Below, in pieces: positions 15,777-46,446 of a stretch of DNA of 47,840 nucleotides; position 1 is the stretch's first letter; the number at the start of each line of letters is the position of its first letter. The stretch spans positions 1 to 47,840 of the forward strand of contig JACXWG010000005.1 of assembly GCA_014764605.1 (NCBI GenBank). Direction: 5' to 3'. The translations under genes and the position numbers were made by a program. Under the pieces are notes generated by a model that was given only the letters and a program-made list of their open reading frames with translations, ran no database searches and was not told where the DNA came from. This stretch comes from Quinella sp. 1Q5. Its GTDB lineage: Bacteria; Bacillota; Negativicutes; Selenomonadales; Selenomonadaceae.

Positions 15777-15805
15777 TTGCATCATTCAAATTGCCTTCAT
15801 ATAAT
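15777..15805 (+). promoter_or_regulatory. SigA-type promoter of dnaG-rpoD
   Basis: TTGCAT (15777-15782), 17-bp spacer, TATAAT (15800-15805). Confidence 0.75.
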
Positions 15806-15832
15806 CGCCGCAAAAATTCTTGTATGCTTGAA

Positions 15833-15857
15833 AGGAAATTTAAAAGAAACAGGGAAT
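15833..15857 (+). promoter_or_regulatory. SigH-like second promoter of dnaG-rpoD
   Basis: AGGAAATTT (15833-15841) with GAAT at 15854-15857, exactly 21 bases from A to G as in the B. subtilis spoVG SigH promoter. The B. subtilis dnaG-sigA operon is also known to have a SigH-dependent promoter. A SigH-like factor is encoded at 45694. Confidence 0.6.
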
Positions 15858-15883
15858 ATAAACGCCACGGAGGTTGAAAGGCT

Positions 15884-17701
15884 GTGAGAAGTGCGGAGCT
15901 TGATGAATTTGTTGAGAAGGTTAGCGAACGGACGGATATTTATTCAGTCGTTAGTCAATATGTAACGCTAACCCAAAAGAGCGGACGATATTGGGGCTGT
16001 TGTCCCTTTCACAACGAAAAGACGGCCTCTTTTAGCGTTAGCCCTGATAAAGGACTTTTTTATTGTTTTGGATGCGGGACAGGAGGCAATGTCTTCAAAT
16101 TCCTTTCACTCATTGAAAACATAACTTATTTCGAGGCTGTTAAACTCCAAGCGCAAAGATTGGGTATTGAACTGCCAAAAAGAAATTCTTCACCCGAACA
16201 AGAGCGGCGACGACGTGAAGAAAAAACTTTGCTAAAAATTAACGAAGTAGCGCAGGATTTTTATCACGAATGTTTAATCAAGACAACCCGTGGCGAAGTC
16301 GGCAGGAAATATCTTGCGGCACGTGGAATTACGCGAGAGACGATTGAAACTTTCCGCTTAGGTCTCGCGCCCGAAGAATGGGATAATCTCTTAAAAAAGC
16401 TCACACGGCAAGGCTACACAGTTCAGCAACTGGAATCAGTCGGGCTCATCGTCAAAAGGAAAACTCTTTCTGGCTACTACGACAGATTCCGCGAACGTGT
16501 CATGATTCCAATCGCCGATATCTTCGGGCACGTAGTAGGCTTCGGTGGACGTATTCTGACCTCCGAGAATGAAGAAACACCTAAATACCTCAACACACCG
16601 GAGACAGTGCTTTTCAACAAGCGGAATTTGCTCTTTGGTTTAGATAAGTCGAATCGTGCAATAAGCTCGGCGGGCGCGGCGGTTGTTGTCGAAGGATACA
16701 TGGACGCAATTTCACTTTTTAGCGCGGGAATAAAAAATGTTGTCGCGACGTTAGGAACTGCCTTCACGCCAGAACACGCCAAGTTGATTCTGCGTTATGC
16801 GAAGAAGGTTTTCTTCTGCTATGACAGTGACGAGGCGGGGCAACGTGCAACGATTCGTGCTTTACCGATTGTTCAACAGGCGGGTGCAGATGTCTTTGTT
16901 ATAAAAATCCCCGACGGCAAAGACCCTGATGAATTCGTTCGCAAGCACGGCAAAGAGGCGTTCGAGGAGCTTATAAAGAATGCGGCAACTTTGATTGATT
17001 ATCGCATGAATTATGTCCTTACTAACACAGAACATTCAACAACCCAAGGAAAGTTTCGGGCATTGCAGGAGATTCTGCCAGTCATTGTCAACATTGATAA
17101 TCCTATCACGAGTAATGAGTATTGTAAAAAAATTGCTGCCGAATTGTTTTTAGATGAACGTCTTGTAGCCGACGAATATCGCAAACTTTTAAAGCAGGAA
17201 TCTTCAAGCAAGCCGAAAAAAGAATACATCATCAAAGAGCCAAGAACATATAGCGAAGAAGAATTGCGAATAAGCATGGCGAGCGAAGAAATTTTGCGAA
17301 TGCTTTGGCACGAAGGCGATATTCTTGACTACGTGTTGACGGTTTTGCCGCAAGAGATTTTTACACCTTGTCACAGAGAAATAATTAGCTGGCTTAAAAA
17401 TTGTGTGGCGCAAGAGCGGCGACCAGATAAGATAAGTGCGGCAGAAGAATTGAGCGAAGAAGCAAACTCAGAACTTTCGCGAATATTGATGAACGGCTCG
17501 GACGAGTTCGGCAAAAAGGAGATTGCCCTATTTGAAGAATCGCTTGCCACGTTGCGTCAAGTCGTGCTCATGAAAAAATTTTATAAGCTCAATGCTCAAG
17601 CTGAAAAATATGTTCCCGAAGATGAAATGACTTATGATAAAACTGTCAAAGAATTGATTAAGATAAAAGCAGAAGTTGATAATCTTAAAAGCAATCCGTA
17701 A
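15884..17701 (+). CDS. dnaG: DNA primase
   Basis: 605 residues. The N-terminal zinc-binding domain has CCPFHNEKTASFSV and FYCFGCGTGGN; the Toprim catalytic core contains VVVEGYMDAIS and FCYDSDEAGQRA; a C-terminal helicase-binding domain follows. It makes RNA primers at the replication fork. GTG start after GGAGG (15869-15873). Forms the conserved dnaG-rpoD unit. Its codon use is AT-richer than that of the surrounding metabolic genes. Confidence 0.97.
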   Translation: MRSAELDEFVEKVSERTDIYSVVSQYVTLTQKSGRYWGCCPFHNEKTASFSVSPDKGLFYCFGCGTGGNVFKFLSLIENITYFEAVKLQAQRLGIELPKRNSSPEQERRRREEKTLLKINEVAQDFYHECLIKTTRGEVGRKYLAARGITRETIETFRLGLAPEEWDNLLKKLTRQGYTVQQLESVGLIVKRKTLSGYYDRFRERVMIPIADIFGHVVGFGGRILTSENEETPKYLNTPETVLFNKRNLLFGLDKSNRAISSAGAAVVVEGYMDAISLFSAGIKNVVATLGTAFTPEHAKLILRYAKKVFFCYDSDEAGQRATIRALPIVQQAGADVFVIKIPDGKDPDEFVRKHGKEAFEELIKNAATLIDYRMNYVLTNTEHSTTQGKFRALQEILPVIVNIDNPITSNEYCKKIAAELFLDERLVADEYRKLLKQESSSKPKKEYIIKEPRTYSEEELRISMASEEILRMLWHEGDILDYVLTVLPQEIFTPCHREIISWLKNCVAQERRPDKISAAEELSEEANSELSRILMNGSDEFGKKEIALFEESLATLRQVVLMKKFYKLNAQAEKYVPEDEMTYDKTVKELIKIKAEVDNLKSNP

Positions 17702-17733: not shown

Positions 17734-19446
17734 ATGACAGGAGAGAATAAAACTGTCGAGCCGAAAGAAAGCGGCTTGAGCGGCAGCCTGTCGGAAAACA
17801 AACCAGAATCAGATGTTGCGGCAGGAATTCAAGCCGCCAAGGGTAGTTCGTCAAAAATTATTTCGCTCCTTACGTTAAGGGCTGTGCAGACGGGTGGAAA
17901 GTTAAGCAGAAGCGACTTTGACAAAATTATTCAAACCTTGGGCATATCAAACAACAAGAAAAAAATTAAAGAGATTCTGAGCATATGTGAAAGAGAAGGT
18001 ATAATGATGTCAGAAGACACCGTTCAAGACGATACGAATAAACCTTCTGTTGAAAGTAAGTTATCGTCTAAATCTTCCGTGGATGATATCGAAGCGATGA
18101 AGCTCGTTACAGAAGTCGAGGATGCGATAGTAGAAAACAAACCACAGAAAAAAGGCAATCTCTCATGGAACAAGCGAACTCATTCCGCACAAAAGAAATC
18201 AGAGGCTATATCGGAAATTCAAACAGAAGATGCAAGCAAAACTGTCAAGGGGCGTCCGCCGAAAATCGTTTCAATCTTGACGGAAAAAGCAAAGCAAACC
18301 GGTGGCAAACTAACTTGGAGTGATTTGGATAGCATTCTTCAATCTCTCGGCATGGAAAATGACACGGACGAGATTGATGAAATTCTAAGTATTTGCGAAC
18401 GAGAAGGTATCCCGATAACTGACGAGGACACCACACCCCTTGAGGATATTGACGACGCAGGTAGCACCGTCGATAGTGATTTGACGGCAGAGGGTGTAGC
18501 ACTGGGGCAAGACGGTTCATTAAGCTCTATCGATACGGTTGAGAGTTCTACCGACGATGTTGAGGCACTTAAGCCAAATATGGAAGACTTGATACCTGAT
18601 AATGTCTCAATTGATGACCCCGTCCGCATGTACCTTAAAGAAATCGGACGCGTGCCGCTCCTTACCGCCGACCAAGAAAAGGAATTGGCAATGCGTATGG
18701 AATCGGACGATGAAGAAAAACATTCCGAAGCCCAGAAACAACTTGCCGAAGCAAACTTGCGTCTCGTCGTGTCCATTGCCAAACGCTACGTCGGGCGAGG
18801 TATGTGGTTCCTTGATTTGATTCAAGAGGGTAACTTGGGGCTGATTAAGGCGGTCGAGAAGTTCGACTATCGTAAGGGCTACAAGTTCTCGACTTATGCG
18901 ACATGGTGGATACGGCAAGCGATAACGCGGGCGATAGCCGACCAGGCGCGCACAATTCGAATCCCCGTACACATGGTCGAGACGATTAATAAGCTCACGC
19001 GAGTTTCACGGAACCTTTTGCAGAAGAACGGACGCGAACCAACCGACGAAGAGATTGCCAAGGAAATGGAAGTGGACGTGGCACGCGTGCGGGAGATAAA
19101 AAAGATTTCGCAAGAGCCAGTATCGTTGGAAACGCCCGTCGGCGAAGAGGACGACTCGCATTTGGGCGACTTCATAGAAGACCACGACGCCCCCGCCCCC
19201 GCAGACGCCGCCTCGTTTATGCTGTTAAAGGAGCAACTCGAAGATGTCCTTGGCACCTTGACGCAACGTGAGAAAAATGTTTTGCGGCTAAGGTTCGGGC
19301 TTGAGGACGGCAGGGCACGCACGCTTGAGGAAGTCGGCAAAAGCTTTAACGTCACCCGCGAACGAATTCGACAGATTGAGGCTAAAGCGTTGAGGAAACT
19401 CCGCCACCCCGCCCGCTCAAAGAAGCTCAAAGATTTTCTGGATTGA
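17734..19446 (+). CDS. rpoD: Primary sigma factor RpoD/SigA with duplicated region 1.1 module
   Basis: 570 residues, much longer than typical Firmicute SigA (about 370). From residue 293 it is a normal SigA: region 1.2 ([17 protein letters not shown]), region 2 ([21 protein letters not shown]), region 3 and region 4 ([19 protein letters not shown]). The extra N-terminal length is two copies of a region 1.1-like module: 41-92 and 177-229, both with QTGGKL, a short helix and [10 protein letters not shown]. Linkers after each copy share an SS-DD-EA-K-ED pattern. Region 1.1 restrains DNA binding by free sigma. The 5' half is also visibly more AT-rich than the 3' half. Starts 32 bp after dnaG. Confidence 0.95.
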
Positions 19447-20748: not shown

Positions 20749-20773
20749 AGGGATTTATTTTTTTACGTTGAAT
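20749..20773 (+). promoter_or_regulatory. SigH-like promoter candidate of the EAL gene (or terminator arm)
   Basis: AGGGATTT (20749-20756) with GAAT at 20770-20773, the 21-base spacing seen at dnaG. However, AATCCCT about 20 bp upstream pairs with AGGGATT and a T run follows, so the same bases could be a plus-strand terminator for the antisense RNA. Both readings fit. Confidence 0.4.
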
Positions 20774-20824: not shown

Positions 20825-22156
20825 TTGAACACTGAAGAAAGTTTACCAGTCAACAAGTTCGATTCATTGACAGGACTTTACAACAGCGAAGCTTTTTACA
20901 AGGAGGCGGCACTACTTTTAAAGGATTGCAACGACGTTGGTTATAATATCGTTTGCTTAGATATAAGTTGCTTTAAAATCGTCAATGACTTGTTCCACAT
21001 GGACACAGGCGATTTGATTTTGCGAGAGGCAGCCAATTATTTTAAGGCGGCACTTAATCCGCGAACCTCGATAAGCTGTCGTGCTGAAGCAGACCATTTT
21101 ATTTTGTGTATGCCAACTGATGAACTCAATATCGAACAACTTATCAAAGACCTAGACGAAAGGATTCAATCTCTGCACATAAGCCATAACATTTTATTTT
21201 TTGCAGGTATCTATCCCATTGATAAGCGCGACTTGGGAAAATTGCCGATTAGTCAAATGTATGACCGAGCGAAATTGGCATTGCAACAAGTCAAAGGTTC
21301 TTATCAGACGCGTTATTCCTATTACGATGCAAAGATGCGCGACCAAATGATTGATGAGCTAATGGAAAAGAGCAACTTGGAAATCGCGCTTATGGAACAC
21401 GAATTTACGATTTTCCTGCAACCGATTTTCAACCCCCGCAAAAATACGGTCGTAAGTGCGGAGGCTCTAGTTAGGTGGATTCACCCTGTGCACGGCATGA
21501 TTTCGCCAGGCAAGTTCATTCCGGCTTGCGAGGACAACGGCTTTATCGTCCGCCTAGACCGTTTCGTTTGGGAAGAGGCGTGCCGCCTTCAACGCAAAAG
21601 ATTGGACGAGGGCAAACCGATTGTCCCCATATCCGTGAATCTGTCTAGGCTTAACTTCTACAGCGATGACTTGCCCGAATTCCTTTCAAGCTTAATGGAG
21701 AAATATAATTTGGAGCCGTGGATGCTAAAACTCGAAGTCACGGAGAGTGCCTACACCGACAACCGCTTGCAACTGCTAGATATGCTCTCCACGTTCAGGA
21801 ATATGGGCTTTACGGTTTTAATGGACGACTTCGGGGCGGGCTATTCGTCGCTGAACATGCTAAAGGACATGCCGCTTGATACCGTGAAAGTTGACATGGC
21901 GTTTATCCGTGAGCTTGAAAAATCCAAACGCGTCGCAGTCATCTTAAAATTCGTCGTCGAGCTTGCGGAGGAATTACAGATGGGCGTCGTCGTTGAAGGT
22001 GTCGAAACTCAATTCCAGTGCGATTACGTGGCTAGCTTGGGCGAAGTGACAATTCAAGGTTATTTCTTCTCTCGACCGTTGCCGATACGTGACTACGAAG
22101 CACTTTTAGATAAATATCTTGTGATTAAGGAGGACGATTCACATGCCGTCAATTAA
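20825..22156 (+). CDS. Cyclic-di-GMP phosphodiesterase: degenerate GGDEF plus EAL
   Basis: 443 residues. The N-terminal GGDEF-like domain (about 10-170) keeps the fold but has RAEAD at 86-90 instead of GGDEF, so it is unlikely to make c-di-GMP. The EAL domain (about 185-430) has EAL at 213-215, SVNLSRLNF, LEVTES, DDFGAGYSSL, the K-x-D pair and EGVET, so hydrolysis of c-di-GMP is expected. No transmembrane or sensor domain: cytosolic. TTG start after GGAAGTGA. Translationally linked to the next gene by a 14-nt overlap. Confidence 0.92.
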   Translation: MNTEESLPVNKFDSLTGLYNSEAFYKEAALLLKDCNDVGYNIVCLDISCFKIVNDLFHMDTGDLILREAANYFKAALNPRTSISCRAEADHFILCMPTDELNIEQLIKDLDERIQSLHISHNILFFAGIYPIDKRDLGKLPISQMYDRAKLALQQVKGSYQTRYSYYDAKMRDQMIDELMEKSNLEIALMEHEFTIFLQPIFNPRKNTVVSAEALVRWIHPVHGMISPGKFIPACEDNGFIVRLDRFVWEEACRLQRKRLDEGKPIVPISVNLSRLNFYSDDLPEFLSSLMEKYNLEPWMLKLEVTESAYTDNRLQLLDMLSTFRNMGFTVLMDDFGAGYSSLNMLKDMPLDTVKVDMAFIRELEKSKRVAVILKFVVELAEELQMGVVVEGVETQFQCDYVASLGEVTIQGYFFSRPLPIRDYEALLDKYLVIKEDDSHAVN

Positions 22157-45559: not shown

Positions 45560-45637
45560 AGTCTCACCTCCGCTTAGTTGTAAAAAATTTTTTATTCTAC
45601 CTTGAAGCTTTAATCCCTACTGCGCCGCCGGAAAAAT

Positions 45638-45666
45638 TTGACTAAGGTTAAGGCGTGAAGTATAAT
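45638..45666 (+). promoter_or_regulatory. SigA-type promoter of the SigH-like gene
   Basis: TTGACT (45638-45643), 17-bp spacer, TATAAT (45661-45666). Confidence 0.75.
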
Positions 45667-45693: not shown

Positions 45694-46446
45694 ATGAAAT
45701 CGAACGTTGAAAATTCTTTCGAGAGCGAGATTGCCAGCGAGTATGCCAAATATGAATCGCTGACCGATGAAGAACTTATCGTTGAGATAAAGGAAAAGAA
45801 CAATCCTTCGGCAATGGATTATCTGATTCAACGCTACAGGAGTTTTGTTAGGGCAAAGGCGCGTTCCTACTTTCTAATCGGCGCGGACAGGGAAGACATA
45901 ATCCAAGAGGGCATGATTGGTTTTTTTAAAGCTGTGCGCGACTTCAAGAGTGATAAGCTGTCTAGCTTTCACGCCTTCGCCGAGCTGTGTGTCACGAGAC
46001 AAATCATCACGGCGATAAAGACCGCCACCCGTCAAAAACATATCCCGTTGAACTCTTACATATCGCTGAACAAGCCGATTTACGACGAAGACTCCGACCG
46101 CACGTTGCTGGACGTGATTAGCGGCGTGAAGGTCGCCGACCCCGAAGAGCTCATCATCAGCCGCGAAGAGTTTCTAGCTATCGAAAAGAAAATGTCCGAG
46201 ATTCTCAGCCAACTTGAATGGGAAGTGCTTATGGCTTACCTTGACGGCAAATCTTATCAGGAGATAGCCGTGAGCTTAGACCGGCACGTTAAGTCAATCG
46301 ACAACGCCCTGCAACGAGTCAAACGCAAGCTTGAACGCTACGTTGCAAGTCGCGGCGAGGCAATCGACATCGGTACTGTCTATCGCGGGTTGGCAACGCT
46401 TGACCGTCACATGAAACCACCTGCCACATTGAAACCGAACAGCTAG
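45694..46446 (+). CDS. sigH: SigH-like RNA polymerase sigma factor
   Basis: 250 residues. Region 2 with DYLIQRYRSFVRAKARSYFLIG and DREDIIQEGMIGFFKAVRDF; region 4 with EVLMAYLDGKSYQEIAVSLDR and KSIDNALQRVKRKL; this pattern fits Spo0H/SigH rather than SigA or ECF sigmas. A ~35-residue C-terminal tail is extra. SigH controls stationary-phase, competence and early sporulation genes in other Firmicutes. ATG after TGGAGG; a further upstream frame start overlaps the promoter. Ends with TAG. Confidence 0.85.
   Translation: MKSNVENSFESEIASEYAKYESLTDEELIVEIKEKNNPSAMDYLIQRYRSFVRAKARSYFLIGADREDIIQEGMIGFFKAVRDFKSDKLSSFHAFAELCVTRQIITAIKTATRQKHIPLNSYISLNKPIYDEDSDRTLLDVISGVKVADPEELIISREEFLAIEKKMSEILSQLEWEVLMAYLDGKSYQEIAVSLDRHVKSIDNALQRVKRKLERYVASRGEAIDIGTVYRGLATLDRHMKPPATLKPNS

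Follow-up and report, generated by a model that had tools for sequence, protein, structure and literature searches.

Our analysis of a Quinella contig indicates that positions 15831-15857 are very probably a SigH-dependent promoter of the dnaG-rpoD operon, which encodes primase and the primary sigma factor. The window, by which we mean the whole stretch of 47,840 nucleotides analysed here, is one contig of a genome of the genus Quinella (Selenomonadaceae, Negativicutes), an uncultured rumen bacterium. The genome shares its genus with Quinella sp. 1Q7 and is a metagenome assembly of 2.1 Mb, 83% complete. On the forward strand the window encodes the DNA primase DnaG (15884-17701, GTG start; TIGR01391, 478 bits, cutoff 283.6) and the primary sigma factor RpoD (17734-19446; TIGR02393, 405.9 bits, cutoff 354), and the gene order is dnaG, rpoD, era. 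The GGAGG ribosome-binding site of dnaG (15869-15873, forward strand) is conserved in the loci of the genus. No known RNA families were found within the window.

The SigH-type promoter lies on the forward strand and combines a -35 element, AAAGGAAAT (15831-15839), with a -10 element, AGGGAAT (15851-15857), across 11 nucleotides. AGGAAATTT starts at 15833 and GAAT occupies 15854-15857, giving a distance of 21 between the starts of AGGA and GAAT. A sequence-only reading of the same DNA had quoted these letters together with those of a SigA-like element further upstream; all of them lie where it had placed them, and the SigH spacing of 21 is exact, as it had said. Measured against the published SigH consensus, RMAGGRWWW-N11/12-RRMGAAW, which comes from Listeria (PMC4754846), the site scores 15/16: the -35 element agrees at 9/9 positions and the -10 element at 6/7, its third base being G where the consensus has A or C. 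This score is reached at three places in the window, among which only 15831-15857 ends in GAAT and directly precedes a gene. The predicted transcript start is at about 15863-15866. Directly upstream of the -35 element lies an AT-rich block, AAAAATTCTTG (15812-15822, forward strand), that is nearly invariant in the genus (AAA at 97-100%) and that we infer to be UP-element-like or a regulator site.

In an alignment of 30 dnaG loci of the genus, window included, AGGA and GAAT are invariant and spaced by 21 in all 30. Conservation starts at AAAAATT (15812) and none was seen farther upstream; column identity averages 0.37 well upstream and rises to 0.94 around the -35 element and 0.97 around the -10 element. 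The wider set comprised 80 named loci of Selenomonadales and Sporomusales, from Quinella, Selenomonas, Mitsuokella, Megamonas, Anaerovibrio, Pectinatus, Schwartzia, Propionispira, Pelosinus and Sporomusa. Over these loci, 90 AGGRWW/GAAT pairs occur at spacing 21, compared with 0-4 at any one of the other spacings between 10 and 40. The sequence-only reading had staked its case on the motif recurring upstream of dnaG in relatives, and it does recur, in every locus of the genus and in 67 of the 80 upstream regions of the wider set, where dinucleotide shuffles gave 1.1 (at most 4 in 200 trials). With it stands the broader claim that the operon has a SigH-type promoter, as in Bacillus subtilis and also in Listeria, throughout this Gram-negative Firmicute group. 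A chance match in A-rich DNA would fit the shortness of the element and the two other places in the window with an equal consensus score, but the gap between the shuffles and the observed loci makes chance a negligible explanation, and we rejected it. Of the 13 loci left, eight have a variant site (GAAA, AGGT or AGGAGN) with the spacing of 21 unchanged, and the last five, all oral Selenomonas/Centipeda (L141, L142, L144, L147, L157), have a SigH-type site about 3 kb upstream. In these five, a gene run that includes maf, a universal-stress-like gene and dgt replaces the dnaG promoter region and abuts dnaG, and the SigH-type site heads this run; we infer that it could feed the whole maf..dgt-dnaG run.

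The GAAT of the -10 element overlaps a TATAAA (15856-15861), through which a SigA promoter might be read instead. GAATATAAA is indeed kept across the genus, but a TTGACA-like hexamer was not found at 16-18 bases from it, the downstream-type sites outside the genus (described below) carry GAATT rather than GAATATA, and AGGA keeps a fixed distance of 21. On these three grounds the SigA reading of GAATATAAA was rejected as very improbable.

Another SigA-like element, TTGCAT (15777-15782) and TATAAT (15800-15805) separated by a 17-base spacer, lies further upstream on the forward strand (15777-15805). It had been described as a near-consensus SigA promoter, which overstates the match: compared with TTGACA-16/18-TATAAT, the -10 hexamer agrees at 6/6 positions and the -35 hexamer at 3/6, 9/12 in all. 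The sequence-only reading had further proposed tandem promoters, with SigA serving growth and SigH serving stationary phase. The perfect TATAAT and the ideal 17-base spacer in the window speak for such an arrangement, as does the B. subtilis operon, where both kinds of promoter occur. Against it, the -35 hexamer is poor, and the three closest relatives (DnaG identity 88-89%) lack the element, which among the loci read is unique to the window's genome. Matches of at least 9/12 occur upstream of dnaG in 3 of the 30 genus loci, where shuffling leads one to expect 3.6. A conserved tandem design therefore does not emerge from the comparison, and we regard the tandem model as unlikely, although read-through or a distant SigA promoter could still supply the operon. 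TTGCAT-17-TATAAT may be a local extra promoter in this strain, outside the conserved design.

The SigH-type site is doubled in more than 20 of the 80 loci (23 by the strict pattern and 28-29 by looser patterns), with the two copies mostly 82-99 bp apart (median near 90). The upstream-type site reads AAAAAGGATATT..GAATATA, and the downstream-type site reads GCAGGAAATTT..TAGCGAATT followed by tacaagtgtct. Quinella retains a single site, similar to the upstream type. Column information for the two types is circular at AGGA/GAAT, the sites having been selected by those letters, and we therefore placed weight on the spacing profile and the genus alignment. In many relatives, among the loci L108-L162, two SigH-type sites lie 60-260 bases before dnaG. 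The conserved tacaagtgtct, which follows the downstream site at the expected transcript start, is possibly a regulatory signal. One genome of another family (G275, family f3) also has two sites, about 39 and 145 bases upstream of dnaG.

The candidate SigH that had been placed in the same window is encoded at 45694-46446 on the forward strand, with an ATG start in a frame open from a GTG at 45655, and passes both TIGR02859 (364 bits, cutoff 294.8) and NF006148 (387 bits, cutoff 208). SigH scored above the curated cutoff in 108/108 Selenomonadaceae genomes from 28 genera (completeness 90% or more for all but the window's genome) and in 180 of 201 Negativicutes genomes. Spo0A exceeded its cutoff in none of the 108 Selenomonadaceae genomes and SigF in none of the 76 searched for it; the B. 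subtilis control was positive for both. Some Selenomonadaceae genomes (G131, G127, G133, G122 and others) encode a second, divergent SigH-like protein.

A motif search was run over 1.72 Mb of the window's genome, window included. Intergenic AGGAWW/GAAT pairs peak only at spacings 21 and 22 (13 and 8 pairs, mean near 1.3 elsewhere), and in coding DNA the pairs show no spacing peak. The pattern AGGAWWTN{12,13}GAAT, with a spacing of 19-20, gave 22 matches versus 12 for its control; the version with SigH spacing gave 44 versus 11. Intergenic AGGAWW..GAAT sites precede genes for MinC, SpoVS, RsmH (MraW), EF-G, Ppx/GppA, PrmC, CbiB and others, in a list whose individual entries may be wrong, as genes were called by a simple longest-ORF method. 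SigH targets in Clostridioides difficile include fusA1, minC and spoVS (PMC7438776), and related genes thus carry SigH-type sites in Quinella. As judged from sequence, this partial overlap with known targets links this class of motif to SigH on grounds separate from dnaG. The site ahead of minC (L298:5040, forward strand) is placed as in C. difficile. Near-identical SigH-type sites occur at L303:8205 and L183:308, both on the reverse strand; the first precedes a spoVS that is retained without sporulation genes, and the second, at a contig edge, may precede a second spoVS copy. Within the window, two weaker SigH-like candidates were found by pattern match: AGGGATT..TTGAAT (20749-20773, forward strand), before a GGDEF/EAL gene (20825-22156), and AGGGATTA..TAGAAT (45594-45618, reverse strand), before cobU, which is divergent from sigH.

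The conserved element might instead be used by another sigma factor or serve as an operator. The window's genome has three further sigma-70-type genes, the second SigH-like protein of some relatives is another candidate user, and the flanks differ between the two types of site. The element nevertheless matches the published SigH consensus at exactly the SigH spacing, the wider site class has a SigH-type target set (MinC, SpoVS, EF-G), SigH is universal in the family, and no such site was seen in the five SigH-less genomes examined from another Negativicutes family, f30. We consider another sigma factor or an operator improbable, and SigH the favoured user of the site.

In other families of Negativicutes, positions of the strict pattern were compared with positions of dnaG, an approach in which misses are weak evidence. 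Sites about 20-175 bases upstream of dnaG were found in 4/6 genomes of family f13, 2/2 of f23, 1/6 of f19, 1/4 of f24 and 1/5 of f3. With the strict pattern, several SigH-bearing genomes of f19, f3, f13 and f24 had no dnaG-proximal site, and the site was absent from all five SigH-less f30 genomes examined. Family f30 (G268, G274, G276, G278, G279, G283) appears to have lost SigH and offers a natural test of what drives dnaG-rpoD. One f23 genome (G207) has the site, while SigH was not detected in it, possibly owing to an assembly gap. The misses in SigH-bearing genomes, the site in G207 and the third base of the -10 element in the window weigh against the SigH reading. In four genomes, AGGAATT..GCGAATA falls within the 3′-terminal part of dnaG, before the expected rpoD (G204:C19:20273, G207:C62:34082, G206:C1:1976955, G190:C20:41120); it may represent an internal SigH promoter driving rpoD or merely conserved coding sequence.

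B. subtilis forms spores and has growth-phase SigA promoters at its rpoD operon. The Selenomonadaceae differ from it in that no conserved SigA promoter was seen at dnaG-rpoD, and Spo0A and SigF are gone. The likeness lies in the SigH-type promoter on the operon of primase and primary sigma factor, which a passage of PMC5325327 reports for the B. subtilis rpoD (sigA) operon, citing Carter et al. (1988). In Listeria monocytogenes, likewise a non-spore-former, RNA-seq revealed a SigH-dependent promoter of LMRG_00908-dnaG-rpoD with the elements GAAGGACTT/GGCGAAT (PMC4754846). The Listeria promoter precedes an extra first gene, whereas the Negativicutes copies are mostly directly before dnaG and often doubled. 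In C. difficile, a mapped dnaG promoter was assigned to SigA, and a second sigA gene (sigA2) is SigH-dependent (PMC7438776); the assignment of the dnaG promoter to SigA counts against the reading of our site as a SigH promoter. A limited literature search turned up no work on SigH regulation in the Negativicutes, which does not prove that there is none, and we found no mention of a sigma factor, SigH or Spo0A in the Quinella genome paper. The link itself is thus already known from B. subtilis and Listeria; new are its wide occurrence in the Negativicutes, the doubling of the sites and its survival after the loss of Spo0A and SigF.

The region upstream of sigH holds a SigA-type promoter, TTGACT-17-TATAAT (45638-45666, forward strand). 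A similar promoter occupies the corresponding position in ten relatives from other genera, with TTGACG/T in 9/10, TATAAT in 9/10 and spacers of 17-18. SigA polymerase would transcribe sigH from this promoter; SigH polymerase would in turn recognise AAAGGAAAT and AGGGAAT and start near 15865, leading to primase and the primary sigma factor. Because a SigA-type promoter stands at sigH and a SigH-type promoter at dnaG-rpoD, SigA probably drives sigH, and SigH probably contributes to the production of SigA. The two factors thus likely form a reciprocal positive loop, SigA-SigH-SigA, which would work in growth, in stationary phase or in both. In Selenomonadaceae SigH may well be active in growing cells, given that every genome has it, that Spo0A and SigF are missing and that no conserved promoter other than the SigH-type site was seen. 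More tentatively, and as a possibility we hold short of even odds, SigH would be an essential growth sigma factor in this family, kept after the loss of Spo0A and SigF since rpoD and dnaG depend on it, and closing the loop.

These results suggest why a "sporulation" sigma factor survives family-wide without Spo0A or SigF. SigH appears to be wired to genes of division and translation as well as to the making of the housekeeping sigma factor. That it may be a growth factor, and even an essential one, in non-spore-formers is an idea directly testable in cultured Selenomonas.
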